Source of the DNA: Loxodes magnus
Taxonomy: Eukaryota > Ciliophora > Karyorelictea > Loxodida > Loxodidae
Direction of reading: 5' to 3'
DNA length: 64,000 bases
NCBI GenBank assembly: GCA_946699065.1
Contig: CAMPDV010000424.1
Span: 124,001-188,000, forward strand
Shown here: positions 7,419 through 56,025 of the stretch, piece by piece
Layout: the number at the start of each line of letters is the position of its first letter
Position numbering within the stretch: the first letter of the stretch is position 1
Position numbers and translations under genes: made by a program
The notes under the pieces: generated by a model
Databases searched by the model: none
What the model was told of the DNA's origin: nothing
Seen by the model: only the letters and a program-made list of their open reading frames with translations

Positions 7419-7972
7419 GAATATTATATTAACTAATACCTTTCATTTTTTTAACCGAAATCGGTTAAAAAAATTATAATATTATTAAATTTTTATTATT
7501 ATAACTTTAATTTTATTTCGCTTAGATTATTTAAATTAACTTTTTTATTTTAATTGTTTCTTTATTTTTGCCGTTTATTTAAAATAATTACTATTTTTTA
7601 AATCTTAAACTATAATTTAAATATTATAAGAGAATTTTTTTTCTTTTTGGAGCATATAATTTCAAATACTCTATTTGAGAAAAATTTCTAAAAAGAAATG
7701 TTACAGTACATTATCTAGTCTATGATACAAAATTTCTTTACTTGTTCAAAATATGGAATTTGTCGATAATTATGCTTTTAAATTTCAAAAATATTTGATT
7801 ATTGCTCCTTCCAATAAATTACTTATTGAATATGATTTAAAGAAAAACAATTATAACTATATAAAATACTTTCTAATAGTTTTTAGAGTTGTGATTAGAT
7901 TTTTAGTGCTAAAATTAGATATCTAAGTTTAAAAAATTCTGCTTTATTATATAAATAAATGAATAAAGAGGA

Positions 7973-8378
7973 TTTTAGAGCGCATAGTACTTCGTTGGCG
8001 CGCAACTCTTTCAATATTAATATTTAATATTAAGAAAAAAAAATTTCATGCTTCTTGTTAAAATTCTTCTAGTTTAATGAGTTAAATCAGCTTCTCCAAA
8101 AGGGAATCTACTTATTAAACCCTATTCACAAATCTTGAATCAAATGTTCCAGTCTTATTGAATAAGGTCTAAATAAAAATAAGTTATTAAGCCATTAATT
8201 ATATGGCTCATTAGACAAATGTTCATGCTGCTAGGAGAACCCTCAGGTAAGTTAGACTTGTCTTTTCCGAGGTTATCCACCCTTCCTCGTGGTGGTATCT
8301 AGTGTGAAATTACTCGCAATTCAGTATAAACTGCACCAAATTACCTACTAATTCTCCTGACCTCAAACGACATCCATT
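7973..8378 (-). repeat. SINE-like repeat A, copy 1
   Basis: About 400 bp, reverse complement of the copies at 12.92 and 31.67 kb. The 5' end (high coordinates) has a TATA-rich run, ATGGATGTCG and a GC-richer structured half. The 3' end is the hairpin TTTAGAGCGCATAGTACTTC on the plus strand. Indels between copies break every frame, so it is non-coding. Confidence 0.8.
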
Positions 8379-8565
8379 TATATTATATATAGTATTTTTA
8401 GTTTCTGAATTAACTGTTTTATTTTCTTTTTTCTTGCTTAGTTTTTACTCTATTTCTTTATCTTTAAATCTATAGATATCTGATTGAATTTTATAAGATT
8501 AATACTCTTCATTTTCTTGATCCTCATTTCTATTTTTAAAATAACTAGGATAATTAGAATAAGAA

Positions 8566-8636
8566 GGTCAAGAAACTCAGTAGTAGAGCATTGGAATGCA
8601 GAACCAGAGCCGTGGATTCGAATTCCTCTTTGTCCT
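8566..8636 (+). tRNA. tRNA-Cys(GCA)-like gene, partly degenerate
   Basis: Acceptor GGTCAAG pairs with TTTGTCC (one mismatch, one wobble). The D arm is ACTCAGTAGTAGAGC. The anticodon loop is ATGCAGA with anticodon GCA, and the T loop contains TTCGAAT. The closing anticodon-stem pair is A-A and the T stem is imperfect, so this may be a pseudogene. T5 follows, as for a Pol III terminator. Two related loci are at 26,996 and 32,167. Confidence 0.65.
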
Positions 8637-10779: not shown

Positions 10780-11560
10780 ATCTTCAAAAAGTTAAAAAGC
10801 TTTGTTAATGTCTTAGTAGTCGGCCATCTGACCTATTCTTTCAGCTTGTCTCCATTAGTTTGTCTTGAGTTCCTTCTAGGCTTAGTTAGATGGTGTAGCA
10901 CTTCATTAATGCACCATCCTTTAATATTCTGAATAGTTTTCATCTTGCAAGTAGTCCTTATTATTTCTCCAAGGATTAAGATTTGAATTAAAGAATTTTT
11001 TTCTATAATTGTTTCCGCTTTATGTTGGATATATCCTAAATAGTTTTCTAAAAATATCTTATTTATTCTTTCTTTAAATTTCACTTAGTTAGTAGCAGTA
11101 TTTTCATTGGTGTTATTTATTGCACACGTAGCATTTTATTCTTCTTTTAACCTATTATTCCTGTAACACTTACTTAATTCAAATAGATTAGTTATTTTAA
11201 ATTAATGTTTACTGTTTATTTTAATTTGAGGCTTCATTTTCTATTTCCATAGGATCTGATTAATTCTGTTAAAACGAAAATGGCTTACCTGAATTTATTT
11301 TTAAATTTAAAGATTCTTTGTTCCAGTTTTTTTTTCTATTTCTTATGGTGATTAATATTGTTTCTCAAGTAAAGACTTTATTAATTTTTCTAATTTTTCT
11401 ACTTTATCATTGAGGTATCTGTTTTGAACATAAACTCTTTTAACGACTTAGATAATATTTCTATTTTAGTTTTGCTTCAGAAGTATTTTTAATTCTTGAT
11501 TTCCAAGTGGTTAATGTTCATCATATCAATCATATTTCTCCCTTTCACTCATTGTAATTA
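10780..11560 (-). pseudogene. Gag-like zinc-knuckle protein, copy G4
   Basis: Reading downstream on the minus strand: a polar linker (INSGKPFSFQQNQSDPMEIE), then RRIKCYVCNKQHQWKYC, a knuckle with three instead of four residues between the second Cys and His. The Trp before KYC is TGA. The C-terminal domain continues in the same frame (RKKFFNSNLNPWRNNKDYL, then WRQAERIGQMADYQDINKAF). The N-terminal coiled coil upstream of about 11,400 is unclear and probably frameshifted. It lies tail-to-tail with G5, whose start is only ~260 bp away. Confidence 0.5.
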
Positions 11561-11823
11561 TTTCGCTTTTTTATTTTTTTGTGAATTTTTCTGTTTAAAT
11601 ATTTTATTAAAAGTTCTGTTATTTCTTAGAAGCCATTTTATATTTCAATAAAGTAACTAAAAAAGGAATAAAGAAAAAGTAATATATTTTTAAGACTTTT
11701 GAATATATGAGATATCTAAGCTATTGTGAAAAAAAGCACTATCTATATCTAATTTTTGTAAAGTATTCTTTTTATTTAATTTATTGTATATTTGATATAA
11801 CTTTTATCTTAAGAATAAAAAAA

Positions 11824-12635
11824 ATGGAGAAGAACATTCGTCTTTCTAAGAAATAACAAAAGAAAAATGAGAAAACAAGTTACGAACGAGGTGCTAAAAA
11901 AGCAAAGACAGGATAGAGAATCTAGCTCGTCTTCAGAGGGAAAAGTAATGGCTGGTCGAATGAACAATAAAACCCTGAAAGTAAAAATAACAATTTACTC
12001 CAAAGAGAAATCGAAAAAATGAAAGAAAAAATTGCAAAATATGAAGAGATATTTTTTAATCAAAGAGAAAAAATCCGGGACTAATGAATTACATTGAAGA
12101 TTAAAATAACGATCTGTTCATTTTCAAAAGTTAACTGATTATAAACTCAGTAGTAGCAGAAAATTAACTTTATGAAATGTCGTAAACTAACTTCAATTCA
12201 TCACAAAGAACGATCATAGAAGAAGATTAGCACAAAATACAACTTTAAGAAAAGTAAAATTAAGTAAAAAATGATACAAACATAAAAAAAGAATTGAGAT
12301 GCTGGAGAAAAAAGTTTATTAAAAATAGAAATTAGAAAAACGATATAAAAATTGTTGGTACTGCTAATCTTGGTATCATTTACTAAGAAATTGTAAGAAA
12401 CGAAGATAACTCAAGTATAATGAAGAATAAAGGACCTGAAGAAACTTAAAAAAACTTTGGATTACTGAGTAAGGAATATATAAATAGAAACTATGAACAA
12501 GAAACTAAGAGAATCCTTCGTGGTAGTCGTCCACTTTAAAAAAAGGTAGTGGAGAACAACCACGGAAAAAAACTTGTTAGCAGAAACCTGGTTGAAAACC
12601 CAGGATATGCAAACTTTAATTTTACATTTAATTAA
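11824..12635 (+). pseudogene. Gag-like zinc-knuckle protein, family 3, copy G5
   Basis: ATG 11,824 begins MEKNIRLSKKQQKKNEK. The knuckle at 12,353-12,394 is intact: CWYCQSWYHLLRNC (CX2CX4HX4C), followed by a basic tail. A polar C-terminus follows (GPEETQKNFGLLSKEYINRN, then VSRNLVENPGYANF). Its Trp codon at 12,356-12,358 is TGG, while the paralogue G15 has TGA at the same residue (62,547). A TGA and frame changes after IEKMKEKIAKYEEIFF, compared with G15, show that the N-terminal half is damaged. Probably a nucleic-acid-binding gag; this copy is likely dead. Confidence 0.65.
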
Positions 12636-12919
12636 AATAATAATAAAAGTAATAAACTTTTATCTTAAATGCTTATTATATTTTTTCAAGATATATTTCT
12701 AAAGAGATAGTTTTTCAAAAATCCTATACTTTTAATAATTTTTAATTTAATGATGAACTACTAAAATGATAGAATGATCAGGGCATAATCGAAGCAGTAG
12801 ATAAAAAATAAAAGCGATAAGTAAAGTAGAACTGATGATAAAGATGTAAATAAACAGTTTTTTTACCTATATGAAAATATAGTAAATATATGTTAATTGA
12901 TATTATTAATATATAAAAT

Positions 12920-13329
12920 ATGGATGTCGGCTGCTATCAGGAGAACTAATAGGTAATCTGGTGCAGTTTATACTGAATTGCGATTAATTTCACACTAGAT
13001 GCCACCATTGGGGAAGATTGGAAAAGCTTAGAAGTGACAAGCCTAACTTACCCGAGGGTTCTCGCTAGCAGTATGAATGTTTTACTGATGGACCTTCTAA
13101 TTAATGACTTAATAACTAATTTTTATTTTGACCTTATTCAAGAAAACTGGAGACCTTGATTCAAGACTTGTGAATTGGGTTAAATAAGAGGATTTCCAAT
13201 TTTGAGAAGCTGATTTGACTCATTGGATGAATAGAATGATAACAAGTAGTATGATAGCATTTTTATTTAGTATTAAATATTAATATTGAAAGAGCTGAGC
13301 ATCGTCGAGGTACTACGCGCTCTATAATC
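12920..13329 (+). repeat. SINE-like repeat A, copy 2
   Basis: Begins ATGGATGTCGGCTGCTATCA directly after ATATAAAAT. The 5' half holds short hairpins (GCAGTTTATACTG and others); the 3' half is AT-rich. It ends with AAGAGCTGAGCATCGTCGAG and GCGCTCTATAATC. Best-preserved copy. Confidence 0.85.
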
Positions 13330-13529
13330 TTATTTTTTATTATTTTTCATTTATTAATTAAAATTTTAAACTGTTTAGAGTAAACAAAAAGTAAGCGTTT
13401 AACTTTCCTCAAATATTTGATATTTATTACAATTACTTACTAAACTTTTCAATAATAATTTAAAGAAATATAAAAAAGTCTAAAAATTTAATGCAAAATT
13501 AAATTAAATTAAAATACTTTAAGATAAAA

Positions 13530-14880
13530 ATTTATCATATCTAAAGTTTAATCCATTTAGGATTTTTCACATCATACATATTTATCTCTTCTTTCTTACT
13601 CTATATATGCCACATGTAAATTTTTTCATTTTAATACATAGGACTAAACCAATTTATCGTACTATTATATTTTTATTTTTCTCCGTGTACTAAGAAACTT
13701 TTGTAATCAAACAAATAAGTTTACTCTAACTTATTTTTATTATCAAATACAAATACACTATCTATTTCATCTCCTCATACTGCTGATGTTCCAAATGAGA
13801 CGTTGGGTAATCCTTTATAAAAATGTATTCAGATGTTTACTGTTGTATCATAAAATATCACTTTATTTCTTTGAATTGCATTCTCCAAACTGACCAAACC
13901 TCCGAAAATATAAACTAAGTCGTGCGTGTATGTAGATCCAAAATAGTTCGTTTAGTAAAGAGAGTCAGCTATTTCAACTGATTTATTGTTTTATATATCA
14001 AACTTTTCACATTTGTTCGTATACTGTATTTGATTAATTTTCCCAGAAATTATGTAAACATTATTATTATTATCATAAACTAACTGAGTCGATATTTTTG
14101 GATGAATTAAGTTGTAAGTTTCAGAATATGTATGAATTATTTTATATATATTTGTTTTATTTGTTCTACTATCCTAGTTTCCGCATACTAACATTAAATC
14201 ATTATTTATTTAAACTGAGTAGAAAAAATTTTCACTTGAAGGATCAAAGTTTGCCAGTTCGATAAATTTCTCAGTTTAGGTATTTAAATCGAAAATAAGT
14301 GATTTGTTAGATTTTAATAAGCTGATTTAGTAAACTTGAAACTGAGGTATTCTAAACGAATTTTTAGATTTGATAACATCTTGGGTGTAAAAGTTATCAA
14401 TAGGTTATCTGAAATATTAAATTAAGTTTTAGAGATGATTCTTTAATTCTTATATTTAATGATCTTTTTATAGATTTTATTCTTGGAAAATTTTAAATTA
14501 TTATAGAAAGTTTTCTAACTCTAGTTTTTCTTTTAAAATTTGGTTATTATTTTCATTTAGTGATTTAATTTATTACTATAAGTTATTATTTTCGTTTTAT
14601 AATAGATTGATTTAAGTTTCTTAGGATTGGATTTATATTAAAAGTTGATTTTCTTTTTATGAAAGTGTTTCTAGTTATTTTTGAGTAGAAAGAAGTTATT
14701 CTTAAAGTAGCTCATATTATTGTAAAATTAACTGGTTTTATCTTTAAAGAAACTTATTTTATGTAATTAATTCAGTTTCATAGATTCCTTAATCCTCAGT
14801 ACTTTCATTTCTTTATGTATTTTCTTATGTTAAAATGGATTATTCTCTAATATTTGACTAAAAATTTTATCCAAAATTTT
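13530..14880. repeat. Inverted-repeat arm: kelch 3' half (left)
   Basis: Near-identical reverse complement of about 23,306-24,635. It covers the C-terminal half of the kelch gene and ends just past the stop. Spacer between arms is about 8.4 kb. Confidence 0.85.
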
Positions 14881-15850
14881 CGCTTTATTTTTAGTCTATC
14901 TAAAAATGTTTTCTAATATATTCAGACATTTTTATTATATTTTCAATTATTTCGTCAAATTATATCATTTAAGTTATCTAAATATTACCTTTTTTTTAAC
15001 TTTCGTTAAATTGTATTAAATTTTCTTGTCATTTAAGGTTTAATAATTCAGTTTGAGAATTTTAAATTTTATTGTATAATTTTTCTATTTTTTTTAATCA
15101 ATTTTCATTAAGTGTTATTAACTCTAAACTTTTCTAATCGAGTTCTCTATTTAAATTTTCTTTTTCTTCTGATAAATATTTGTTTTATTTTTTGATTTTT
15201 TTTGATTAAATCTTTAATTCAGAGTTACATTTTTTTTCTTATAGAGAAATATTTAGCTAATTTACATACAAATTTTGTAGGTCTTGATTTACCTCATTTA
15301 TATTTTAAATATTGGAAATGATTTCTTTTAAGTTTTGTTAAATCTTGTTAAATTACTAAGGAAGTTCTTGGCTTTTGCACTCTTAAGTATCTTATTTAAG
15401 ATTTCACTAACTTTAATTAAAAGGGCTTCATATTCTTTCTTAACTTTCATTCGATTTATTAATTTCTTTTTAGTTTTGTTTGACTTCATTTTCTTATGAC
15501 TTTTTAAGTCAAGAATTATAGTTTTTATTTTACCCCTCAATCAAACTATTTTATTGACTGGAGTCATTTAAAAAGGATTAAAAGGATTTTTACATCAATT
15601 TTTCAATTTCTTCATTTGAAATAAATTTTTTGTCTATAATAGCTTTAATAATTGCTAAAAGATCCTCTCTGATTAATTTTAAGAAGACATCATGGATTTA
15701 AAGTTATTCTTACAAATCACTCTATACTTTTAATTTATAATTTTCTTATCTTCTATAATCTTCTATAAATTGTTATAATATCTAATTTGTTATGGAGCAA
15801 GTCTGATCGCTGTTTCTATTTTCTTTTTATCTATTTTCATTAGCATTCAT
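13535..15850 (-). CDS. Coiled-coil / kelch-like repeat protein
   Basis: ATG 15,850 to TGA 13,535 is 2,316 nt = 772 codons with no frameshift, provided TAA/TAG = Gln and seven internal TGA = Trp; three Trp are TGG. Residues ~1-490 are a Gln-rich coiled coil (QEQLLSTQKQLETLSQKENQ). Residues ~530-770 form beta-propeller-like repeats with kelch features (THDLVYIFGGLVSLEN, SVEIADSLYQTNYFGS). The Trp at residues 674 (NIWIHFY) and 692 (AVWGDEIDSV) are TGA. The end is ...KWIKLQI-TGA-TAA. Similarity with the duplicate at 23-24.6 kb stops a few bases past this TGA, which supports it as the true stop. Likely a cytosolic protein-interaction scaffold (inference). Confidence 0.85.
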
Positions 15851-22855: not shown

Positions 22856-24624
22856 ATGGATAACTAAATGCAAGATCTGCTATATTCAATTAAGAAACAA
22901 GCTTCCAAATAATTATTTGAAATATGTAAATAATTTGAAGAATTTTATGATCAAATTAATATTTGCTGGAACGAACTGAAAAAAATAATTCTTGATATTT
23001 AATTGATGCAAAATGAGAAATAAATTAAAGAATAGGATTTAGAAATTAAGATGCAAGAAATAAATAAAAGAATAGAATGCTAATAGCAATAATTTTCATT
23101 AAATTAAGAGGAAATATCAAAAAAATTCAATTAAGTAGAATTTATTTAAAAATTCTGGAATTCTCTGCTAGACAGTTCTGAATTTAGTCATTCAAAAAGG
23201 GTTATTGAATAAATAATATAAAATTAACAAAAAATGAAGAAACAGAACGAGGTTCTCAAACTTTAAGATTAATAAAAAAAAGAAATAGTCAAAGTTAAAT
23301 ATAGAGTAATATGGAATAAGCCATTTTAACATAAGAAAATACATAAAGAACTGAAAGTACTGAGGATTAAGGAATCTATGAAACTGAATTAATTACATAA
23401 AATAAATTTCTTTAAAAACAGAATCAATAAGATTTACAATAAAAAGAACTACTTTAAGAATAACTTCTTTCTACTCAAAAATAACTAGAAATACTTTCAT
23501 AAAAAGAAAATCAACTTTTAATATAAATCCAATCCTAAGAAACTTAAATCAATCTATTATAAAACGAAAATAATGACTTAGAGTAATAAATTAAAGCACT
23601 TAATGAAAATATTAACAAAAATTTAAATGAAAAACTAGAATCAGAAAAAATCCTGTAGTAATTTAACATTTCTCTAGAATAAAATCTATAAAAAGATTTA
23701 AAAATATAAGAATTAAAAAATCATCTTTAAAGCCTAATTTAATACTTCAGGTAGCCTATTGATAACTTTTACACCCAAGATGTTATCAAATCTAAAAATT
23801 CGTTTAGAATACCTCAGTTTCAAGTTTACTAAATCAGCTTATTAAAATCTAACAAATCACTTATTTTCGATTTAAATACCTAAACTGAGAAATTTATCGA
23901 ACTGACAAACTTTGATCCTTCAAGTGAAAATTTTTTCTACTCAGTTCAAATAAATAATGATTTAATGTTAGCATGCGGAAACTAGGATAGTAGAATAAAT
24001 AAAACAAATATATATAAAATAATTCATACAGCTTCTGAAACTTATAACTTAATTCATCCAAAAATATTGACTCAGTTAGTTTATGATAATAATAATAATG
24101 TTTACATAATTTCTGGGAAAATTAATCAAATACAGTATACGAACAAATGCGAAAAGTTTGATATATAAAACAATAAATCAGTTGAAATAGCTGACTCTCT
24201 TTACTAAACGAACTATTTTGGATCTACATACACGCACGACTTAGTTTATATTTTCGGAGGTTTGGTCAGTTTGGAGAATCCAATTCAAGGAAATAAAGTG
24301 ATATTTTATGATACAACAGTAAACATCTGAATACATTTTTATTAAGGATTACCCAACGTCTCATTTGGAACATCAGCAGTATGAGGAGATGAAATAGATA
24401 GTGTATTTGTATTTGATAATAAAAATAAGTTAGAGTAAACTTATTTGTTTGATTACAAAAGTTTCTTAGTACACGGAGAAAAATAAAAATATAATAGTAC
24501 GATAAATTGGTTTAGTCCTATGTATTAAAATGAAAAAATTTACATGTGGCATATATAGAGTAAGAAAGAAGAGATAAATATGTATGATGTGAAAAATCTT
24601 AAATGGATTAAACTTTAGATATGA
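22856..24624 (+). pseudogene. Chimeric kelch paralogue with one frameshift
   Basis: ATG 22,856 starts a coiled coil unrelated to the other kelch gene (MDNQMQDLLYSIKKQASKQL). From about 23,306 the sequence is nearly identical to the 3' half of the gene at 13.5 kb and ends at the same TGA-TAA (24,622-24,627). The two halves are one base out of frame across an A8 run at 23,274-23,281. TGA at 24,328 and 24,382 occupy the same Trp sites as in the other copy. It is either a pseudogene, a real gene with a base-call or homopolymer error, or a fusion made by partial duplication or gene conversion. Confidence 0.7.
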
Positions 24625-24635
24625 TAAATTTTTAA
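23306..24635. repeat. Inverted-repeat arm: kelch 3' half (right)
   Basis: Reverse complement of 13,530-14,880. The breakpoint at about 23,306 lies inside the coding region; the other end is a few bases past the stop. Confidence 0.85.
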
Positions 24636-25309
24636 TTTTATCTTGCATTTAAAATATATCTAAGATCTACCAGTAATTCTTCTTAAAAACTATTTACAAT
24701 GGAAATTATTTAAAGAGTTTTCACTAATACATTAATAAATTTTTCATTGTATTTAAAACTTGAGGATTCTAAAGATAATTGAAAATAAAATAATTTATAA
24801 ATTAATAAGATTTAAAATTAAAATTTAAGGATATTTGAAGGTGTCAATTTAAAAGCAGTTTTAATAGATAATTATTTTGTGATAAAGTTTATCTCTTCAA
24901 TCAATTATAAAATTGTCTTTATTTTTTAATTTTCATATTTAATTTTCTTCAAAATAAGTTTAATGATAATACATAATTTAAAAAGTCTGATCTCAAAAAT
25001 ACTAATATCTATTAAATTAAAAAATAGCTTAAACAAATTTACATTCTTTTTAATATAAAATGAGCTGTGCTACTATTATTTGAGTAAATTTAAAAAATTT
25101 GATTTTTAAGCCAAAAATGATATTAGAATTAATTTAAGAAAAATTATTGAAATTAATGATAAAAAAATGTGATATTAATTAATTAAAGTGATTTCACCTA
25201 TATTTGTTTCATCACGAATTAAAAGTTTTGGTTAAATAAAAGCATTAACTTCAAATTTGCTTGGATCATGTCTATCATTATTAATAATAATAATATTAAT
25301 TTTAAGTTT
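24636..25309. other. AT-rich gap
   Basis: No coherent frame or RNA recognised. Confidence 0.4.
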
Positions 25310-26244
25310 TCCGTTTTAGGGATTTTCAACTCCGTCAGAAAGACAGCAGTTCATGCTCCCTGCTGTTAAATATAAATTTTTGGGACGCCCAATTTTAGCG
25401 AGATTGGGAACTCGGATTTTTCCAGGTTTTCCCTTCTTTAACTTGTCTTGATTCCATCTTAATCTTGTATATTAAACCATTCGGGTTACAATACATTCTT
25501 TTCATTCTTGCTTCTTTTTTTTTCTTCTTTTTTTGTTCTTTTATCCAATAATTTCTTTATTTCTATAAGAATTTCTAACACTTCCGATAAAAATGTCATA
25601 CGTTTCCACAGCAGAAACATTTCTTTTTATTTTGAATTATTTTCCTTGATTTGTTTGCTCTTTCTAGGCTTCGATTTCCATTTTTATAGCTCCAGTTTCG
25701 CTTTACTCTTTCTTAAAAGTTTACAATTTCTCTTCTTCTTTTCCGAGTCTGTTATCCAGTTCAGTCTGTTTCTAAAGCTAATTTTAGAATTCGTTAGTCT
25801 GACTTTGTTAGATATTCCAAAAGGCGTTAAGATCTCTTTCTAGGACATGAGTCTTGACTCAATTCCTTCTGCTAGGTCTAGCTTTGCCATCAGCATATCA
25901 TTGTCCTTCTTCAATCTCTTGACCTCTTCCTGGAGGTTCAGTACTACTTTGATGAGCTACTCCATGCTCATCTGGCCAGAAGGGTTGAACTCTGATACCT
26001 CCTGGTGGAGAACAGACTTCATCTGCTTCCTCAGTTTCTCGCTTGAGGTTGGAGTTTCCGTGTGTATATTCTTCAAGGTTGGCTTTCGTTCGTTTTGTTA
26101 GATTCCAAGTTGTTAGTTCAGTGTTGGTTAAGGTTATGATAGAGAAGATTGTTAAGATTATTAAAGCTTGGTTTCTTGCTTCCTCCCTTCCTTTTTGGCT
26201 TAGGAAGAGGTGGTATAGAAGCTTGACTTGAAACCTTCAACCAT
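25310..26244 (-). pseudogene. Gag-like zinc-knuckle protein, family 1, copy G7
   Basis: ATG 26,244. The central coiled coil is well kept (HQEVSEFNPSGQMSMEQLIK, VVLNLQEEVKRLKKDN). Relative to copy G9 it lacks one base near 25,830 and one just before the knuckle. The knuckle reads CFCCGNV-W-HFYRKC, with TGA at the residue before His in both copies. Its FWN triplet uses TGG (25,817) where G9 uses TGA (29,386). The 3' end keeps two stem-loops (CAGCAG...CTGCTG and GGGATTTTCAACTCC). It forms an inverted pair with G9. Confidence 0.7.
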
Positions 26245-26795
26245 TTTTTTTATTTGTCTATCATTATTCTTTATGATTTTAAGTTTTTTCTTACTAATAG
26301 TTTCCTATAGTCAATTTTCATTTATTTCTTTTTGAATTCATTAACTTTATGTTAGTATATGGAGCTTCTTTGTTTAGTTGGATTGTTTTTCCTGTAAATT
26401 TTGCCTTCTTAATTGCATCAAAATCTGAATATATTTTCCCATTAATTTTCTATGATTCTCTTTTCTTTTAGTCTGAATTGGAAACAATTTCATATTTTAT
26501 GTAATGGCCACTTTTCATATCAGCATCTAGTTATTTTCCGAAAGGAAATATAAATTATCGTAAGTTGCTGCTTCACATTCATCGAATCATTCATTGATAT
26601 CTTTTAGAAGAATATGCTTTCCGTCAGCTCTTCAAATAGGTAGAATTTTGTTTCTAATTAATCGATTCTGATATTCGCTGCCTGATTATTCTCATTTTTT
26701 TGTACATTTTTATTAATCATCAGATATTAATTTTTCTTTCGAGCTCTTTTACTTTTCTTAAAAGTTTAAAATTTTCTTTTTGCATAATTTTAAAG
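26245..26795 (-). pseudogene. Gag-like zinc-knuckle protein, family 2, copy G8
   Basis: Starts near 26,795 with MQKENFKLLRKVKELERKIN. A long segment aligns in frame with copy G16: ELTESIFFQKISMNDSMNV, then a knuckle TRCWYEKWPLHKIWNCFQF in which the second Cys is Glu, then RFWCNQEGKIYRKN for the second motif. Two Trp in the knuckle are TGA. A frameshift lies before ELTES. It abuts G7 head-to-tail on the same strand. Confidence 0.6.
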
Positions 26796-26995
26796 TCTTA
26801 AAGTATTGTTTAATGATCTTAGTTTTTCTGAGATAAATCCTTTACAAGAGATTTTTTTAAGAAATTTTCTTTTTTTATATTAAAAAAGTATGTAATAATA
26901 GCTATAAAAAATAACGCAATCTGATAAAAATTAGATTGAATTAACTTTAGATAAAATAGATCGAAATTAAATAATATTAATGTTAAAATAAAGCA

Positions 26996-27068
26996 CGAAT
27001 AAGGTGGGAATTGAACACCACGACCTCTGGATCTGCAGTCCAATGCTCTTCTACTGAGCTACTTGTCC
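26996..27068 (-). tRNA. tRNA-Cys(GCA)
   Basis: On the minus strand acceptor GGACAAG faces CTTATTC. The D arm is TAGCTCAGTAGAAGAGC, and the anticodon stem TTGGA/TCCAG encloses CTGCAGA (anticodon GCA). The T arm GTGGTGTTCAATTCCCAC has one extra base. It is the best of the three Cys loci but slightly irregular. Confidence 0.75.
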
Positions 27069-28580: not shown

Positions 28581-28964
28581 GAATAAGCAATCATTATGAC
28601 TTCTTTTGTCTAAAATAAATCCTATAATTAAAAATCTATTATATTATCAACATTAACTACTGATGGAGTATCCACAAAATACTAAATAATGCTTTTTAAA
28701 AAATAAATTGAATGATTTAGAAATAATAATTCAAATTTGAAAATTCTCCCAAATTTCATCCATCTTACTCCTTAAAAAAGGAATAAAGCTAATAAAATAT
28801 TCTGAACTGCTATCGCATCTAGTTATTTATAAAAAAATAAAAAAGTTTTTATTAAATTTTTAAGTAAGTTAGAGATTTTAATAAAAGCAGATGCTAAAGA
28901 GTTTAAATTAGAAAGAAAAAACATCATAAAATAAAGTTTAATTTGAAAAATAAAATAAAATAAA

Positions 28965-29900
28965 ATGGAAGGCTTCAAAAGGGTTTCTATACCACCTCCT
29001 CGAAGAAAGAGAGGAAACCAGAAACAAATCTTGGGCAGTCTTCTTACATTTAACCTTAACCTTAACATTTTACTTAATAATTTTAAAAACCTGGAATATA
29101 ATAGAGCTACGAAGAACGGAAACAGACTCAGAAAAGCACTCATGTGCTTACTCCAACGTCGGAGGAGAAGCTTAGAAAACAAGCGAAATCTGCTTTGCAC
29201 CAGGAGGTCACAGAATTTAACCCTTCTGGCCAGATGAGCATGAAACAGCTCATTAAAGTTGTACTAAACCTCCAGGAAGAGGTAAAAAGCATATGAAGGA
29301 CAATGAGAAGCTAATGCATTAATTTAACCTAGAAGAAGGAATAGAGTCAAGACTCATGTCCTAGGAATGAGAACTAAGTGCCTTTTGAAACATATCGAAA
29401 AGCCAGAATAGCTAATCCTAAAATTAGCTTCAGAAACAGACTGAACTGGATAACAGATTCATAGAAATAGAAGAAAAATTGTAAACATTAAAGAAAGATT
29501 AAAGCGAAACTGGAGCTATACAAATGGAAATCGAAGCCTAAAAAGAGCAAATCCATCAAGAAAGATAATTAAAAATAAAGAAGAAATGTTTCTGCTGTGG
29601 AAGCGTATGACATCTTTATCGGAAGTGTTGGAAATTTTAATAGAAATAAAGAAACTATTGGATAAAAGAGCGCAAAAAGAAGAAAAAGAAGAAGCAAGAA
29701 TGAAAAGAATGTATTGTAACCCGGATGGTTCAATATACAAGATTAAGATGGAACCAAGACAAGTTAAAGAAGGGAAAACCTGGAAAAATCCGAGTTCCCA
29801 ATCTCGCTAAAATTGGGCGTCCCAAACATTTATATTTAACAGCAGGGAGCATGAACTGCTGTCTTCCTGACGGGGTTGAAAATCCCTAAAACGGAAAACA
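28965..29900 (+). pseudogene. Gag-like zinc-knuckle protein, family 1, copy G9
   Basis: ATG 28,965 gives MEGFKRVSIPPPRRKRGNQK, a basic N-terminus. The coiled coil (HQEVTEFNPSGQMSMKQLIK) follows in another frame, and one base is missing near 29,295. From 29,356 the frame is intact: QEWELSAFWNI with both Trp as TGA, coiled coil, knuckle CFCCGSVWHLYRKCWKF (29,587-29,637), second motif RMYCNPDGSIYKIKMEPRQ, and a C-terminus SREHELLSSWRGWKSLKRK. Two 3' stem-loops follow. Near-reverse complement of G7. A gag-type RNA-binding role is inferred; this copy carries at least two frame breaks. Confidence 0.7.
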
Positions 29901-29949
29901 TAAATTAATATTATTATACAAAGTTTAATTTGTTCTTAAATAAATTTCG

Positions 29950-31105: not shown

Positions 31106-31666
31106 AATTTTCTACTTTTATTTTTTGTTGATAGTTATAATAAAGAATTTACTATTAGTTAGAGAATGAGAAGTTTTAAATTGTGTTTGTATGATCTTCA
31201 TCTTAAAAACTAGAAATATTTAGTGAAAGCAAGTGAACTTAAAAATTTATATATATATTCTTATTTAAAATTAAAACTTTTTTTCAAGTTTAATTTTATT
31301 AAAAAGACAGATGCTTCCAATCTTAAAGTTTTACTTGCTAAAATGTTTATATTTTAAATTCTACTATGAAATCCAATTTTATGACTATTTCATAGCGAGT
31401 GATAATTAAAAACATTTGAAGGTTTTTTGGTTAACAATATTTGGTTTAAATTTGTGCCTCTATCTTAAAGAAATAATATTATTATTTTATTTCAATTAAT
31501 ATTTCTTAGATTTATGCAAGATAGAAAAGAGAATGGAAATTTTGAATAACTACAATTTATGTTAGCTTTTAATATCAAAATTGTTTATTTAGCTTTCCTT
31601 TTAGAGATATTTGATCAGTTAAAAGCTTTTAAACCTTTTTATTTTTTATTATATGATATAAAAAAT

Positions 31667-32071
31667 ATGGATGTAGTCTGTGGTTAGAAGAACTAGTAGG
31701 TAATCTGGTTCAGTTTATACTGCATTGTGAGTAATTTCGCACTAGATGCCATCATGGGGAAAGATGGGCAAGTTCGGAAGAGATAAGCCTAACTTCCCCG
31801 AGGGTTCTCACTAGCAGTATGAAAGTTTGGCTGACGGATCTAGTAAGGACTTAAATATTTATTCTTAATTGGATCTTATTCAAGAAGATTGAAGCATTTG
31901 GTATAAGATTTTAGAATAATCTTTAATAAGCAGAATCTCCTTTTTGAGAAACTGACATGAATCATTGGTAGAATAGAATAATAACAAAAAAATATGAGGA
32001 CACTTTTTTTAATATCAAATATTAATATTCAAAGAGCAGTACGCCAATGAGATGTAACGGGATCTATAATC
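31667..32071 (+). repeat. SINE-like repeat A, copy 3
   Basis: Starts ATGGATGTAGTCTGTGGTTA after a TATAAAAAAT run and shares the GC-richer 5' half with copy 2. Its 3' hairpin has mutated (AGAGCAGTACGCCAATGAGA...GGGATCTATAATC). Confidence 0.8.
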
Positions 32072-32166
32072 ATGTTTATTTATTTAATTTTTTTCTTAAT
32101 TAACTTAGAGCAGTTTTTTCTTTTTCTCGACTCTTTTTTTAATTAAGTAAGCCAAGATAGTTAATA

Positions 32167-32239
32167 TAATAAGGTAGCTCAGTAGTAGAACACTGGACTG
32201 CAGATCCAGAGATCGTGGAGTCGACTCCCACCTTGTTCT
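32167..32239 (+). tRNA. tRNA-Cys(GCA)-like gene
   Basis: Acceptor TAATAAG/CTTGTTC pairs at six of seven positions. A D arm, anticodon stem CTGGA/TCCAG around CTGCAGA (GCA) and T loop GTCGACT are present, with one mismatch closing the T stem. A T-rich run follows. It lies ~95 bp past a SINE-like copy. Confidence 0.7.
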
Positions 32240-34167: not shown

Positions 34168-35059
34168 AGAAAAAAAAAGAATTTTCACGCTATGCATTTT
34201 TAGTTAAATTGCATTTATATCAATTCTTATTTCACCATAGAGAGTATGTTACTGAGTATTAATTACATTTGAATCATCCTTAATCTAAATTAAAATGTTA
34301 GTATATTCTATTTAATAAAAGACATAGAGTTAAAATTATCTTCAAACTTATATCTAGAACCACATTTAACAATTAAATACACACCGCTAAAAAATTTCTG
34401 AGATATGAGATTCGTGGAAGTTAAAAAAGATGTGAAATTAAAGGGATTTTCTTCTATCAAATATTTTAAATAAGCTTTATATTAATTAGATATATCCTTA
34501 GCCAAAAATGATAGAAGGATTAAAAATGAATCGAAAGAAACTAATAATATAGTTTCTTTTAATAAGGAATTATTAATAGAAAATTATCCTATTTAGTAAA
34601 ATTTTCATTTTAAAGAAACTTGTTTTTTAACAAACTAATACTCAAGCGTAGTTTACTATTATTTAGTAAATTTATGCGAAAATATACAAATATAATAATA
34701 TATTTAATTCTTCTTTAAGCAAATAGATTCTTTTAATAAATTTTTATCTAGAAAGAGATTGCTTGTTCTTATCCATTTAATTTAAACTAGAATAAATTTG
34801 CTGATAAAAATTTCACTAGAAACTTCAAATTAAGACAATTTGTTTTTTATAACCAAAAAAGTAAAATAAAATGTATTTAAAGCATTTCACAATATCTCTT
34901 TAATTTTAATACCTTTTATTTTAACTATGACTTTTAGTATTGTAATAGAAACATCATTTTAATAAAGACTAAAACATCCTATTTTTAGCAAATATTATAT
35001 AAAGAAAATGTTTCTTCTTGCTTGTTCATAAATTTTCTGATAAAAAGCGACACAATATT
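34168..35059. other. AT-rich gap
   Basis: No element recognised. Confidence 0.4.
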
Positions 35060-35569
35060 TCAGTATTGGTGTTATAATGCTTCTGGTTCTTTGAAACTTC
35101 TTATTCTATTTTGCTAGAATTTTGATGTTTAAGTTTGAACTCTATTATATTTTCTTGCTACTTTGTTTTATTCATTGTTTTAATTAACTTATCCATCTTT
35201 ATCTTTATTTAAGTCTCTTATTTCTTCTTATACTTATTAATAAAAAAGATTAACATGAACTCCAAACTTACTAAAAATTCTTAAAAGTATCTCGTCTTTT
35301 TCTTAAGTTCGTTCAAAATTTCGAAGAGGAAGTAAAACTCCTAACCATCGCTTTTTGCCCTACTTTCCTGTACGAACTTCTTGCAAATGGAAATCGGAAT
35401 TTAACTGTCTAGATACCCTCGACCACATTACTTTTTTTTTGGGGTAATTAACAATTTTTGTTAGAAGTTAATCTTCTTCTTAAGTCCAATCAACTTTAAC
35501 ATACTTTCTCCATTCAAGCTTAACCTATTTATCAATCTAACTATTTAAAAGAGTCTGCTAACTTTCCAT
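35060..35569 (-). CDS. Divergent Myb-like DNA-binding protein
   Basis: ATG 35,569 to TGA 35,060 gives 169 residues in one frame. The first repeat is clear: KVDWTQEEDQLLTKIV, VMWSRVSRQLNSDF, EVRTGKQGKKRWLGVL. The second repeat (EKDEILLRIFSKFG) lacks its first Trp. The paralogues have TGA there (LEWNEEKE), whereas this copy has CGA (FERTQEKD), a one-base change from TGA to CGA. Myb repeats bind DNA as helix-turn-helix units, so a nuclear regulator is likely. It shares strand with the Myb gene at 40.2 kb. Confidence 0.8.
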
Positions 35570-39425: not shown

Positions 39426-40038
39426 AAAAGCTAATTATTTATATCTTATAACTTTAAAAAAAAGAACATTTAATAAGATAATTTTATTTAAATCATCAAG
39501 CAAAAATTAAATATAATCCTTCGAAGATTAATTATCTAGATCATTTTCTTTATTAATTAAGATTCTAGTATTAAATAAGTTTAACTTACGTTTGTATAAT
39601 AAAGTAAATTATATACACACTAAAAGAATAATTGAAAGAACAAAAATTAAAATAAGGTTTAATTTCGTAAGCTTATTAATATGATAGCTTAAAGATAAAT
39701 AAGTTTTACTTTTGGTAGCTTGAATGCTTAATAATAGTTCTTAGTATCTTTTTAAATAGATCTTCTCTTTTATTTTAATTATTTAATGATAAACTTTAAG
39801 TATTTTTTTCTTATATGTAAGTTAAATCTTACAAATTTGATATTCAAAAGCTACTTAAAGAAATTATTTAGATAGCATAATAAATAAATAAATGCTGTAA
39901 ATAAAAAATTAAGAGTTTTCATTTCTTATTTAACTATATTTGCTTACTTTCAACCTAAACTTATATATGATTTTAATAAACTATCTTAAAATACTCTTCA
40001 TTTTGTGAACTAATTTATGTTTATTTTTCTTAGTAAAT

Positions 40039-40866
40039 CAGTTTATATGAGATTGGCTTCGAATAAGAGTGATAAGTAATTATTATTAGTGTAATAACTT
40101 CTTATTTTTAATAAAAGTATTAACTTTAGGGTAGTAATTATATAAATATAACTATCTATTTCATACTAATTAAAAATAAAAATCTATCTTCACTAACTTT
40201 CCATTAAGCAACTACATAATATCTTCAAACTTGAGTCGTTTACTTTCACTTTCTTTGCTACTTATTTTTCTTCAATCATCTAAATTTAATGTTTTTCTTT
40301 AGTTTAAGCTTTTCTTTCATCAGCGTTCTCTCCTTTATTTCTTGAATTCAAAAGGTCTTCTAATTTTAATTTTATCTGATACTTATTAAAATCTCTTAGT
40401 TTTACTTAGCATTCTTTAAGAAAACGTTTTTCATATAGTCCAAGATTTTCATGTATTTGTAGTAGCATTTTCTCTTTTTCTTCATTTCACTCCAACTTTT
40501 ATAGAGGCTGTAAAACTTGCACCCAGCGTTTCTTACATTACTTTCCCGATCTTACATCCCCCAAATGAAAATCTAAGTTTAATTACCTAGCTACTTTAGA
40601 CCAAATTACTTTTCTCTTACTTTTGGTAACTATATCCCTGAGAAGTTAATCTTCTTCTCTATTCCAGTCAACTTTTACGTATTTTCTCCAAATAAAGACA
40701 ATTTACTTAGAGTCACGAACATTTTAGTCACTCTAGACTTGCGAATCCATTTTTATAAACATCTAATCTGCATTCAAGTAAATATCTCATTTAAACTTCT
40801 AAATTAAACATAACTTTAAACATTTTAAGCAGGTATAACAAGCTAAATTATTCCTATATTTAAATT
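40039..40866. repeat. Inverted-repeat arm (left) carrying a Myb gene
   Basis: About 828 bp, nearly identical to the reverse complement of 50,193-51,020. Only a few substitutions were seen. Contains the whole Myb gene plus ~115 bp upstream and ~150 bp downstream. Confidence 0.9.
40190..40750 (-). CDS. Myb-like DNA-binding protein (two Myb repeats), copy 2
   Basis: 561 nt, ATG 40,750 to TGA 40,190, same length and frame as the copy at 50.3 kb. Differences I noted include Ser to Asn in HESLGL and Asn to Lys near the C-terminus. The TGA for the first Trp of the second repeat (40,487-40,489) is conserved. Predicted nuclear DNA-binding protein of 186 residues with a basic C-terminal tail. As both copies sit in identical arms, they probably share flanking control sequence. 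Confidence 0.85.
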
Positions 40867-41568
40867 ATAAACGAGATTAATTTAACCATACAAGCATTTT
40901 CAAATGCTCTATACAGAGAATTTTATATAGAACTAAGCAAAAAAATTATATGAATAATTCATATCTTAGAGTGAAAATCTGATTTTTAATAAAGTAGTTA
41001 TTTATTCAGTTAAGATGCATAAGATTTAATCTCTAGAATTGTTTATATAATTTTGTTCAGTTGATAAGTTTGTACTGAGCCTGAGATTTGAAATTTGAAT
41101 CAATATACTACGAAAAGTAAACCTAATCCATCATATTTTATTTAGCTAAGCAAATCCTTTTCTTTTTATTTGGCGAAATTAACTTTTTAATCTTTTTACT
41201 TTCACTTTTTATCTATTTTTAATTCAGGGTATAAGGATATTTTTTAGATTATAGAAGATAATATAGTGAAACTTGAAACGTGAATCATCCATCATAAAAA
41301 GTATGAAAGATGAAAAATTCGAAATTTTACTAAAGAAAAATTTAACGAAGGTTAAACAAATTAAATTAAAGCCAATAAGAAATGTTTATAATTGTTAATA
41401 AAGTTAGCTCATCTAATAAGCGAAAAAATTCATAGAAGCAAATAAATTAATTTTAAATCAGAAGCTAAAAATTAAACCATTATTGACGTTAGGCAATTAA
41501 ATAGAGAAAAGATAATTAAACAAAGCAAATATTTAATCTAAGTCATTTAAAATTTTATCAAAATTAGC
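40867..41568. other. AT-rich intergenic region
   Basis: No element recognised. Confidence 0.4.
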
Positions 41569-45000: not shown

Positions 45001-45562
45001 TATCTTATAAATTAATCATTCCTAAAATTTTATTTAATAGAAGCTAAATTTCAAATTTTTTGGCTTGCTTTAAAGAATCAAACCAGAAAAAAATCAATTT
45101 ATTTATGTGAATATTATTACTTTTTTTTATTTAGTAATTTTGAAGAGAATTAACTACAAATTTTTAAAAACGAATCTGAAATAATTATCTAATAACTGAT
45201 TATTTTATTATTATGCAAATTTGAAATTTTATTTATATTCTCTTAGTTTATAAGCTTAATGCTTATTAATATTAATTTTATTTTAAGTTTTTTTTCAGAA
45301 GATAAATAAAATTTTAATCTGTAAAAATATTAAAAAAAATTGAAGTATGACTTTTTAATTTGATGCTAGTAAAGATAATTGAATTTTCTTTCTATTTTTC
45401 CTTCAAAATTTTAGAATAACAAATAGTAAAAAGATTATCCAATCGTCCTTCTCTGAAAATTTGATAACTTATAGCCTACTGATTTAACTTCTTTTTCTTT
45501 TATTATTTATAAATTTTTATATCTATGAATAATAAGACTTATCAGATAAATAAATAAAAATG
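42022..45562. other. AT-rich region with one coding-like patch
   Basis: Around 43,545-43,930 (plus) a frame reads VMYGVRPQEQIKASKAFRSM, then FFGLLRNIIAIFLTLQLYY, like a membrane protein, with a single TGA. Boundaries are unclear. Nothing else recognised. Confidence 0.3.
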
Positions 45563-45967
45563 ATTATAGAGTGCGTAGCACCTCGATAGCGCGCAGCTCT
45601 TTCAATATTAATATTTAGTATTTAAAAATGTTCACATGATTCTTGTTAAATTCTAGAGGTCCGATGAGTTATGTCATCTTCTCCGAAATGGGGAATCTTC
45701 TTATTAAAAATTATTCTTAAATCTTGAGTCAAATGCTTCAGTCTTCTTGAATAAGGTCCAAATAAGAGATAGTTATTAAGTTGGTAATTAGAAAGTCCGT
45801 CAGTCAAACTTTCATACTGCTAGAGAGAACCCTCGGGGTAAGTTAGGTACGTCTCAACAGAGCTTATCCACCCTTCCCCGTGGTGTCATCTAGTGCGAGA
45901 TTACTCGCAATGCAGTATACACTGCACCAGATTACCTACTAGTTTGACTGACGCGGCCGACATCCAT
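45563..45967 (-). repeat. SINE-like repeat A, copy 4
   Basis: Reverse orientation; 3' hairpin at 45,563-45,605 (TATAGAGTGCGTAGCACCTC...GCGCGCAGCTCTTTC). The 5' end near 45,967 is CGACATCCAT on the plus strand, followed by a TATATTATATAA run. Confidence 0.85.
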
Positions 45968-46166
45968 TTTATATTATATAATAATATCATATATTAATAG
46001 TTAAAATTAAAATTTGAATCATTTTCTGACTTTTAATTTTCAAGTAAGTTATAGTCTAAATCTACTAAAACCATATCGAATTTTATCTAAGATCTTTAAG
46101 TTTAAAATCAAATTGATTCTGAAATTAAAAAACTTTTTTCTAGTTTTAAGCATTGTAGAATATCAA

Positions 46167-49900: not shown

Positions 49901-50192
49901 GTTTAAATTCAAATTTCTTTCCTTGAAAATAAATTTTCTGAATGAACTAGTAAACTAGAATAGTATAAGATAATAAATGATATTGTACTTAAAATCATTG
50001 CAATATTTCAAGGAACTAAGACATTAAATCTATTAACTTAATGGTATATTTTCCAACTAAAATTAATATAATAAATATCATTAGAGAAATGCTATTTGTA
50101 GATCTTTCTTTTTCATCAGCTTTTAATGCTCAATGAAACGATTAAAATAAACGAAGATCAAAATGATATTACATAGATCTACTTAAAACTTA

Positions 50193-51020
50193 AAGCTTAA
50201 ATATAAGAATAATTTAGCTTGCTATACCTGCTTAAAATGTTTAAAGTTATGTTTAATTTAGAAGTTTAAATGAGATATTTACTTGAATGCAGATTAGATG
50301 TTTATAAAAATGGATTCGCAAGTCTAGAGTGACTAAAATGTTCGTGACTCTAAGTAAATTGTCTTTATTTGGAGAAAATACGTAAAAGTTGACTGGAATA
50401 GAGAAGAAGATTAACTTCTCAGGGATATAGTTACCAAAAGTAAGAGAAAAGTAATTTGGTCTAAAGTAGCTAGGTAATTAAACTTAGATTTTCATTTGGG
50501 GGATGTAAGATCGGGAAAGTAATGTAAGAAACGCTGGGTGCAAGTTTTACAGCCTCTATAAAAGTTGGAGTGAAATGAAGAAAAAGAGAAAATGCTACTA
50601 CAAATACATGAAAGTCTTGGACTATATGAAAAACGTTTTCTTAAAGAATGCTAAGTAAAACTAAGAGATTTTAATAAGTATCAGATAAAATTAAAATTAG
50701 AAGACCTTTTGAATTCAAGAAATAAAGGAGAGAACGCTGATGAAAGAAACGCTTAAACTAAAGAAAAACATTAAATTTAGATGATTGAAGAAAAATAAGT
50801 AGCAAAGAAAGTGAAAGTAAACGACTCAAGTTTGAAGATATTATGTAGTTGCTTAATGGAAAGTTAGTGAAGATAGATTTTTATTTTTAATTAGTATGAA
50901 ATAGATAGTTATATTTATATAATTACTACCCTAAAGTTAATACTTTTATTAAAAATAAGAAGTTATTACACTAATAATAATTACTTATCACTCTTATTTG
51001 AAGCCAATCTCATATAAACT
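50193..51020. repeat. Inverted-repeat arm (right) carrying a Myb gene
   Basis: Reverse complement of 40,039-40,866. Homology breaks at about AAATATAAGAATAATTTAG on one side and CATATAAACTG on the other. Confidence 0.9.
50310..50870 (+). CDS. Myb-like DNA-binding protein (two Myb repeats), copy 1
   Basis: ATG 50,310 to TGA 50,868-50,870 is exactly 187 codons. It begins MDSQVQSDQNVRDSKQIVF. Repeat one: KVDWNREEDQLLRDIV, VIWSKVARQLNLDF, DVRSGKQCKKRWVQVL, with the three spaced Trp as TGG. Repeat two: KLEWNEEKEKMLLQIHESLG, where the conserved first Trp (residue 88) is TGA at 50,571-50,573. The C-terminal ~80 residues are charged and helical. RSGKQCKKRW is the classic recognition-helix signature of Myb repeats. 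Likely a nuclear DNA-binding regulator. It stands ~400 bp downstream of the channel gene. Confidence 0.9.
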
Positions 51021-53928
51021 GAAAAAGTTAATACATTTAAGTAATTGAGTAAAACAAAAACTTATAGAAATAAAAGAAGATAAAACTAATAAGGCTTTTA
51101 TTTTTATAAATTAAAGACTAATTTAAGATAATCTGCTAAAATACATCATAAATTTAGGATGTAATAAGCAATATATTGATATAAAAATTTATCAATAGTT
51201 TTTTACTTTTAAACTAAAATAATTTCTTAAGAAAAATTCTATCAAAAAGCAAATTTTCAGTTAAATTCATCATTTTTACATAATAAAATATTTTTAGGAG
51301 TTTAGTAGTTGATAATTAACTAGCTTTAAAAGTTAAGGTAGAGTTATTACACTTTCTAAAAGTCTAAAAATTTAATTTTTCATTTAGCATTCTGAAAATT
51401 AAAAAATTTGTAATACTTAAAAAAACTACCAAGTTTAAGCTTTACTTTTTGACTATGGATAACTCAATAGCAGTTAAATTTAGAAAAATCCTGATTAATT
51501 CTAATCTAATTATTTTCTAATTCTTTCTAGAAATTATTTATTAAATAGATTATTCAAAATTTATTAAGAGAGAGAAATCTATTTTCGAGTATTAATTTCT
51601 ATCTACTTTAATTAATTTATGCTCCTATCTTTAAAAAGATTGCTAAACATAAACCGATGTAAAATATGTATTGTTTGCCTTAATTTTAGAATGCTTTTTA
51701 TGAGTTTAAATTAGTAATAAATGAGTATTACTAATGAAAGTTGTAAACTAATAAAAAGTTTAAATACCTCACATTATATAATAAATAAGTATACTAAAGA
51801 AACTAATAAAAATGATTATTCAATTACATATCTAATAAGGCTATACGCTAGATTTATATGATTAAAAATGGTTGAAATATTTTTCAATAGATAAACTATA
51901 AAGTCTGTATAAGAAAAAATTAAAAATTAAAGCAATAATAAATAAAAAATCTATTAACGCTAAAATTTGGATACTTATTTAGTTTTATTCTCCAACTTCT
52001 TCTCACAATAAAAATTTACCTTAAATTCATTCAATTATTCGATAAGTTTATAAATTTTATTAACAGTGCTATGCGCAATTTAATCAAATTTTGGTTTAAT
52101 CAGCAGAGAAAGAATTTTCTTTTTATTTTCCTTTTTTTATTTTTAATTTTATAAATTATTTTTATTTTTGCTTAATCAAAAATACACTAGAAATTATTTA
52201 AAAACTGATTAAGATTAACATTTTGACTATCTCCTTTTAAAGTTGTTCATGTTTAATAACTTTTAAATAAGAAACTTTCTTGAAATATAAAAAATAACAT
52301 CGATTTTACTAAATTAGATAATTATTTTATGAATTGCTTAAAATTTAAATAATCTATCATTTTTTTATTTATAATTAGAGATATGTTCTGCTTTAGTTTA
52401 AACTAATTTAAAAATTGCTATTTTAAAATTTTTAATTAGCTAATTTTTTTTTTTCGCTAAAAGTTAAATCTCATTTTATCATCTTTTTAAATGATACCAC
52501 TCATAATTATGATGCCATTATTAAATAGATTTTAGCTTTAGTTTTGGATTTTTTTATACAATAATCAAAAAGGCAAGGATTCCTTGCTTTATTATCAACT
52601 CATTTTTTTAATTTTTTCCAGCCGAAAAATATGATATAGTTCTAAAGTTTCGTGAAGTTAGTTTATTAAGGTTAAAATCAATAATAATCTATAAATGGAA
52701 AATATATACTCTAGTTCTTAAACTCAAACCGAAATTAAAAAAGATTCTCTAAATCTTTAAACTAAAATCATAGCGAGACATATCCATAATACAATCTTAT
52801 TCAAATAATCTATCTCTTTTTTCTTAGAAAATTCAGCGGAAAAATTGAAAGACTAGCTCTTCTCACTTGGGCACTATTGAATAAAAAAAGGAAAATATAT
52901 CTGACACAATTATTGCTTAACATATCTTTAAACTTGTCATAATTTAAAATTTTGGTGTAAAAAGGGTTGTAAATTTATTTAATTATACAAAAAAATAAAT
53001 CTAACTGAAAGCTATATTGCAGGTAGCAAAGCGTAAGATATGCTAAAGAAAACAATAAGATAATTAAAAAAATGCTTTATAATAAATTTAAAAAATATAT
53101 TAAGATGTGGGATGGATAGATTTAATTAGAAGTGGTTAAAATTATTATATTAGTATATCATTAGAAAATCTAGAATAGGAAATTATGTAAAGCTCGTTAT
53201 TTAGTTTTAATATAAATTGATATAGTAAAATTTTAAATCTAAGAAGGTGAAAAAATTAGCAAAAAACTTTAGAAGAAAGAGTTATTTATTCCGTTATTCC
53301 GCTAATAAAAAAGAAATGAATACTCATTAATAGTCTAGCAATAGTTCTGTTAGATAGAAAATAGATTTATAGTGATTACCATTATTTTAACTTCTTTATT
53401 CGATGTATTAAAAAAAAATCGAAAATTGATTTTCATATAAATAGACTTTATCATTCGTTAAAACTGAAAAAAGTATTACAGGCTGATTCAAAGCTTTTAG
53501 GAATCTAGAACTCTATGAATCATAATAATATCAAAAATAAATTCCTTCATTTTCTAAATTAAATTGAAGTTTCTTCAATATATAGCATGGAAACAAAAGC
53601 AATCGTTTTATCTATTTCCTTAAATAATCAAAAGAAGGCATTATAAAATATTTCAATTTTATTGATCGGTGAGATTATTTAATCATACAAGCTAGATTTG
53701 TTTAAATTAAGATAGCAACTAAGATAATAGTAGTACTTAGCTTCTAAAGTAAAAGAATAGTAACTACATTGATATAATTGAAATATTTTTAATATTATGA
53801 TTATTAAATAAGCTTAATATAATAATTATTACATAAAGCTATCATGTTTTTTTTAAGATTAAAAATACATAAAATTTATTTGTTTCCTCTATCAAATTTT
53901 TGTCTTAAATAAATAAAAAATAAATTTA
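51021..53928. other. Long AT-rich gap
   Basis: 2.9 kb dominated by A/T runs. I found no motif-bearing frame, RNA or repeat family member. Confidence 0.35.
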
Positions 53929-55710: not shown

Positions 55711-55732
55711 TTTTAATATATATAATAAAAAT

Positions 55733-56025
55733 ATGGATGTTGGCTGCGGTCAGGAGAAATAGTAGGTGGTCTGGTACACTGTATACTGCACTATGAGTAA
55801 TGTTCCACTAAATACCACACGGAGCAAGGGGGTAAATTCAGAAAAGAAAAGCCTAATTGCACGATTTAGTTAAAAAAAATGAAAATTCGACTGACATGGT
55901 ATATTAATTAACTATTTATTCTTATTAAGTCCTTATTAAAGAACTGGAGGAATTGGTTTAAAAATAATTAATTATTTTTAAAAGGAAGATTTCCCATTTG
56001 AGAAACTGACATAAACATTAGAATT
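55733..56025 (+). repeat. SINE-like repeat A, copy 5 (3'-truncated)
   Basis: Starts ATGGATGTTGGCTGCGGTCA after TATATATAATAAAA. It matches the other copies as far as TGAGAAACTGACATAAACAT and lacks the terminal hairpin. It begins 23 bp past the start codon of G11 on the other strand. Confidence 0.75.

Follow-up and report, generated by a model that had tools for sequence, protein, structure and literature searches.

The closest described system is Loxodes magnus. Its published macronuclear assembly comprises 706 Mbp, of which 231 Mbp are tandem repeats and 454 Mbp interspersed repeats, and karyorelicts including Loxodes are reported there to use NCBI table 27, with UAA and UAG as Gln, UGA as both Trp and the sole stop codon, and short 3′ UTRs (PMC11441545). 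The passages of that report on gene ends describe coding UGA and UAA as depleted ahead of the stop, whereas UAG is not, so that TAG is tolerated right before a terminal TGA. In Condylostoma magnum (table 28), all three stop codons likewise have a sense meaning, but all three also terminate translation there (PMC4967479), and a tRNA-Trp(CCA) with a 4-bp anticodon stem is found as well (PMC13092985). The karyorelict Parduczia sp. has the same assignments as L. magnus, with UGA as stop (PMC4967479). Amoebophrya sp. ex Karlodinium veneficum is a syndinean and not a ciliate, but it reads UAA and UAG as Gln and UGA as Trp, has UGA as its only apparent stop and possesses a 4-bp-stem tRNA-Trp; its dynein genes, however, strongly prefer UGG over UGA, and its 3′ UTRs are longer than those of ciliates (PMC6394959, PMC12005148). 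Termination that depends on proximity to the poly(A) tail is the model put forward for such codes (PMC4967479). A 4-bp-stem tRNA-Trp has been reported earlier for Loxodes, and those of Blastocrithidia and Condylostoma increased UGA readthrough in reporter systems (PMC13092985).

The stretch of DNA analyzed here, referred to as the window, comprises 64,000 nucleotides (C424:124001-188000) of an assembly whose 7843 contigs total 705,730,643 bases. It is close to certain that this DNA is nuclear and comes from a karyorelict ciliate that uses table 27, almost certainly L. magnus. By sequence comparison, TAA and TAG fall at conserved Gln, TGA falls at conserved Trp, and actin has TGA at its canonical end as well. 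Among the features compared, no difference from the published description of L. magnus appears, including the TAG just ahead of a terminal TGA. This code is already published for L. magnus and is not a new finding. An earlier note on this DNA had placed the novelty in the data set, a claim that fails in view of the published assembly, which was annotated with table 27 (PMC11441545). The raw sequence does confirm the context-dependent karyorelict code in the window (Table 1), and an annotation made with the bacterial code or with table 6 would disrupt these genes.

Table 1. Positions of the genes, codons and repeat copies discussed in the text (window coordinates).
Feature	Position	Strand	Remarks
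Coiled-coil and kelch-propeller gene	13535-15850	minus	772 codons, table 27; 8 TGA (7 internal, 1 terminal)
TGA codon 674	13829-13831	minus	conserved kelch Trp, context YDTTVNI-W-IHF
TGA codon 692	13775-13777	minus	within propeller; best PDB alignment pairs the codon with Ser
Terminal TGA codon 772	13535-13537	minus	TAG ATA before, TAA after
Second kelch copy, different N-terminal part	23307-24634	plus	95% identity over 1328 bases, no indel
Myb gene	40235-40756	minus	TGA codon 90 at c-Myb Trp; TAA codon 73 at Gln of GKQC
Myb inverted copy	50304-50825	plus	99.4% identical to 40235-40756; TGA at same codon 90
Diverged Myb paralogue	35009-35533	minus	CGA where the two other copies carry TGA
Zinc-knuckle repeat copy	11811-12614	plus	TGG at 12,356-12,358; frameshifted partner of 62006-62791
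Zinc-knuckle repeat copy	62006-62791	plus	TGA at 62,547-62,549
Zinc-knuckle repeat copy	25193-26830	minus	relatives on other contigs of the assembly
Zinc-knuckle repeat copy	28879-29904	plus	inverted relative of 25193-26830; relatives on other contigs
Repeat of ~440 bases, copy	7945-8400	minus	
Repeat of ~440 bases, copy	12890-13365	plus	
Repeat of ~440 bases, copy	31636-32105	plus	
Repeat of ~440 bases, copy	45540-45990	minus	
Repeat of ~440 bases, copy	55700-56025	plus	

Judged from sequence comparison, TGA means Trp within genes and terminates at least one of them. This dual role follows from the genes for actin, a CHD-type helicase, a WD40 protein and a MORN protein in the same assembly, which together bear out the code that the earlier note had proposed (TAA and TAG as Gln, TGA as Trp and stop, of the karyorelict or Condylostoma type). 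The assembly was sampled in 18 stretches of 10 kb, which were scored with a fixed coding model in place of one retrained on the sampled stretches, as the latter drifted into satellites. The actin gene (L018:3454-4578, plus strand) scores 535 bits against an actin chain in PDB. Of its four TGAs, codons 81 and 342 correspond to Trp 79 and Trp 340 of that chain, and the other two stand opposite Thr/Pro and Gly in the two PDB chains shown. TAA is found at conserved Gln at codons 123, 139 and 355. The frame closes with GIVHRKCF-TGA, the canonical actin end and the sole gene end fixed by homology; terminal TGA thus coexists with sense TGA, as had been claimed. Two of the four TGAs of the CHD-type helicase likewise fall on conserved Trp, codon 491 in GLNW and codon 900 in FDSDWNP, the remaining two lying outside the aligned domain, and its TAG codon 826 is the Gln of LIFSQ. 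A long frame in L008 gave no match in PDB.

TGA and TGG also replace each other among repeats within single proteins. The WD40 protein consists of seven 42-residue repeats, whose ‘K-x-I’ site is filled by TGA in four repeats and by TGG, Tyr and Val in one each, and whose ‘IKxWD’ site is filled by TGA once and TGG six times; at the ‘V-x-S’ site, TGA is found in one of six repeats, with neither TGG nor any other aromatic residue. In the MORN protein, the 12 repeat columns hold TGA 5, TGG 2, Phe 3, Tyr 1 and Leu 1, chosen by a pattern allowing W, TGA, F, Y, L or TAA/TAG, and five of its nine TGAs are on the repeat column and four off it. Hypergeometric values for such placement (MORN, 7e-8; WD40, 1.6e-7; actin, 5e-4) serve as illustrations, as the columns were picked once the sequence had been viewed, TGA is built into the MORN rule, and the WD40 value was calculated for 18 columns where 20 are shown. 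In 12 hand-picked genes (6442 codons), TGA occurs 53 times (0.82%) and TGG 52 times; the 53 TGAs include kelch codon 772, which is terminal, and a codon late in a dehydrogenase frame, perhaps its stop. Sense UGA makes up 0.042% of codons in C. magnum and 0.120% in Parduczia sp. (PMC4967479).

Within the window itself, the kelch gene is an exact single frame once Gln is assigned to TAA and TAG and Trp to TGA, just as the earlier note had stated, and it uses 64 TAA, 13 TAG, three TGG and eight TGA codons. The note further held that several of the seven internal TGAs (codons 114, 141, 149, 251, 274, 674 and 692) lie at Trp of propeller repeats, which was overstated: only codon 674 does so, codon 692 is opposite Ser, and the other five are all in the coiled-coil half. 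In-frame GT..AG stretches of 12–33 nt span none of six internal TGAs, and two candidate stretches exist at codon 149. The C-terminal half exceeds the cut-offs of both PF13964 and PF13418; PF24681 is the best family by E-value (8.4e-08), with 32.2 bits below its own cut-off of 50. When ten residues were tried at TGA in PF24681, Trp scored best (28.5 bits) and Leu next (24.9). Leu leads Trp in PF13418 (29.7 vs 28.6) and Gly leads Trp in PF13964 (29.0 vs 28.0), two families of short kelch motifs whose best-matching stretch stops short of the TGAs. The second copy of the kelch region retains the equivalents of TGA 674, 692 and 772, and no TGA differs between the copies. Relatives of the kelch region and of the Myb genes were not found among predicted proteins.

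The Myb genes supply both assignments on a smaller scale. According to the earlier note, TGA encodes the invariant first Trp of a repeat in these genes; this holds for the inverted pair and not for the diverged third gene. The c-Myb residue aligned with codon 90 is presumably the first Trp of repeat R3. TAA is found at the Gln of EEDQ as well as that of GKQC. In PF13921, four residues were tried for TGA and Trp came first (40.7 bits; Cys 38.6, Gly 36.2, Arg 36.1). For TAA, Gln gives 40.7 bits in PF13921, ahead of Glu (39.0), Ser (37.5) and four others with lower scores, and in PF00249 Gln is ahead of Glu by just 0.1 bit; the Pfam bits overall put Gln at or above Glu, and Glu above the others. 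The inverted pair extends over 833 bases with 99% identity (40038-40870 and 50190-51022, 9.3 kb between them), with one Myb gene in each arm.

Which codons end the genes decides between table 27 and table 28, the Condylostoma type, in which TAA and TAG would be able to terminate too. The stop at the kelch and Myb ends is ambiguous because TAG stands near the terminal TGA: the 3′-end of the kelch gene reads CTT TAG ATA TGA TAA, with TAG two codons ahead of TGA, and the Myb gene contains TAG TGA close to its end. The similarity of the second kelch copy stops 10 bases past the terminal TGA, and the last internal TGA lies 36 codons (actin) or 80 codons (kelch) upstream of the stop in these two genes. 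A gene end that needs TAA or TAG was not seen, a single end being fixed by homology. That end, the canonical one of actin, is TGA. The published account has UGA as the sole stop of L. magnus, with UAG not depleted ahead of it (PMC11441545), and the tandem-repeat content of the assembly matches Loxodes, which leaves table 28 very improbable. An all-sense code from outside the ciliates is hardly credible, even though that of Amoebophrya sp. ex K. veneficum has identical assignments (PMC6394959, PMC12005148): the long tandem repeats of the assembly match L. magnus. The Blastocrithidia code, in which TAR is Glu, is opposed by the higher score of TAA as Gln than as Glu and by the position of TAA and TAG at conserved Gln.

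Table 6, in which TAA and TAG are Gln and TGA is only a stop, would turn the TGA-bearing frames into pseudogenes, and the repeats of the window lend this some color. Pair 11817/62006 shows 12 indels and pair 25287/29150 shows 8, each of them of frame-breaking length, and the codons opposite a differing TGA are TGG 5, AGA 5, TAA 4, TTA 4, CGA 3 and TGC 1, summed over three frames and counted along one sequence. Between the two kelch copies, 61 bases differ; in the gene frame, 18 codons have synonymous and 34 have nonsynonymous changes, little sign of purifying selection. However, these 61 differences come without any indel, whereas the two zinc-knuckle pairs combine 63 and 90 differences with their indels; in full-length actin and in a CHD helicase, conserved Trp residues are written as TGA, and TGA and TGG interchange in the WD40 and MORN repeats. 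Table 6 is therefore even less probable than table 28. A further alternative, that TGA stands for Cys, Arg, Gly or Tyr, has a negligible chance of being right. The zinc knuckles taken alone favor Tyr, with BLOSUM62 sums over seven knuckles (six TGA cells) of 42 for Tyr, 20.5 for Phe and 19.5 for Trp, those of Cys, Arg and Gly being negative, but PDB alignments show Trp at the actin, helicase and Myb sites and the Pfam bits favor Trp. The alternation of TGA and TGG between paralogues was rejected as proof of TGA as Trp, as the pairs are frameshifted and AGA is as frequent opposite TGA as TGG; because the copies are decayed repeats, the argument does not discriminate. The differences listed in the earlier note at 62,547/12,356 and 29,386/25,817 are real, although they share this weakness. 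In the column of its NCWKF block, after the last zinc-knuckle Cys, TGA and TGG do both occur, but the seven copies read TGG, TAG, AAG, AAA, TGA, TTC and TGG.

Under table 27, UGA must be read in the middle of genes and obeyed at their ends, and the assembly contains candidate components for both. The tRNA-Trp(CCA) pattern is found at 128 places against 13 in the control. Among the 100 places listed, 48 are on C67 (C67:482323-491201, units of ~187 bases) and 49 on C148 (C148:155464-168698, mostly units of 241), and the others are two single genes on C110 and one place on C12 that Rfam missed. In all four array copies inspected, pair 27-43 is broken (A.C in two copies from C67, U.C in two from C148), leaving a 4-bp anticodon stem, while both single C110 genes keep five intact anticodon-stem pairs. 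The anticodon-UUA pattern occurs at 199 places against 28 in the reversed control; four of five inspected matches, in three of four stretches, are tRNAs by ARAGORN at a lowered threshold, and one stretch is without a tRNA. From their likeness to eukaryotic tRNA-Gln, we take these to be Gln tRNAs. Anticodon-CUA tRNAs number 86 places against 12, by pattern only. Arrays are not specific to Trp, because part of the UUA tRNAs are also arranged in arrays and tRNA-Lys-like sequences form equal-scoring places of regular spacing on C78, C103 and C158; tRNA-Lys(UUU) was found in all 11 checked of 30 tRNA-Lys-like loci, the array copies lying outside these 11. The length of tRNA arrays may be affected by assembly.

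On the termination side, two eRF1-like genes, C196:19713 and C196:54613 (L020 and L021), lie 35 kb apart and have NIKS and FLCENTF; we assume NIKS and YxCxxxF to be the usual eRF1 motifs, FLCENTF standing in place of the latter. A third match to the eRF1_1 family, on C2 (L019), has a higher score and is without NIKS. By analogy with the literature, Gln-type tRNAs would read UAA and UAG, UGA would be a near-cognate codon decoded by the 4-bp-stem tRNA-Trp(CCA), and eRF1 would end translation at UGA only where a short 3′ UTR brings the poly(A) tail close. A limited literature search found no published description of tandem arrays of tRNA-Trp genes, an arrangement that is relevant to the decoding of UGA by a tRNA other than one with the UCA anticodon and that is one part perhaps worth a second look. 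It is conceivable, though rather doubtful, that L. magnus devotes an amplified, arrayed pool of 4-bp-stem tRNA-Trp(CCA) to UGA and separate 5-bp-stem genes to UGG. If so, one isoacceptor would be divided into two decoders by gene dosage, which would fit the share of TGA, about half of the Trp codons in the 12 hand-picked genes.

The surroundings of these genes are rich in repeats. In three of the 18 sampled stretches more than 90% of 15-mers are repeated; the share is 93–96% in L004, L010 and L013 (10 kb each). Repeats of the window have relatives on other contigs, with 42 matches to the fetched loci covering 8756 window bases. No relatives of the window were found in viral contigs or in genome contigs, a genome set that may omit the window's own genome, and low-complexity matches dominated when the window was compared with itself by six-frame blastp. 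The frame L006:8107-9603 (minus strand) contains a FAYADD motif, which we take to be reverse-transcriptase-like, and lies next to a sequence related to window 10788-11682 at 91%; because of this neighborhood, the sequence suggests that the zinc-knuckle families may be parts of retrotransposons. The ~440-base repeat has five copies in the window, one of them truncated, with 67–80% identity, and further copies in L005, L007 and L011; it had no Rfam match at the gathering threshold. Three diverged tRNA-Cys(GCA)-like copies, at 8566-8636 (plus), 26996-27068 (minus) and 32168-32238 (plus), are detected by Rfam and missed by ARAGORN at its default setting, and they may be SINE-like, because two of them sit at most 170 bases from copies of the ~440-base repeat.
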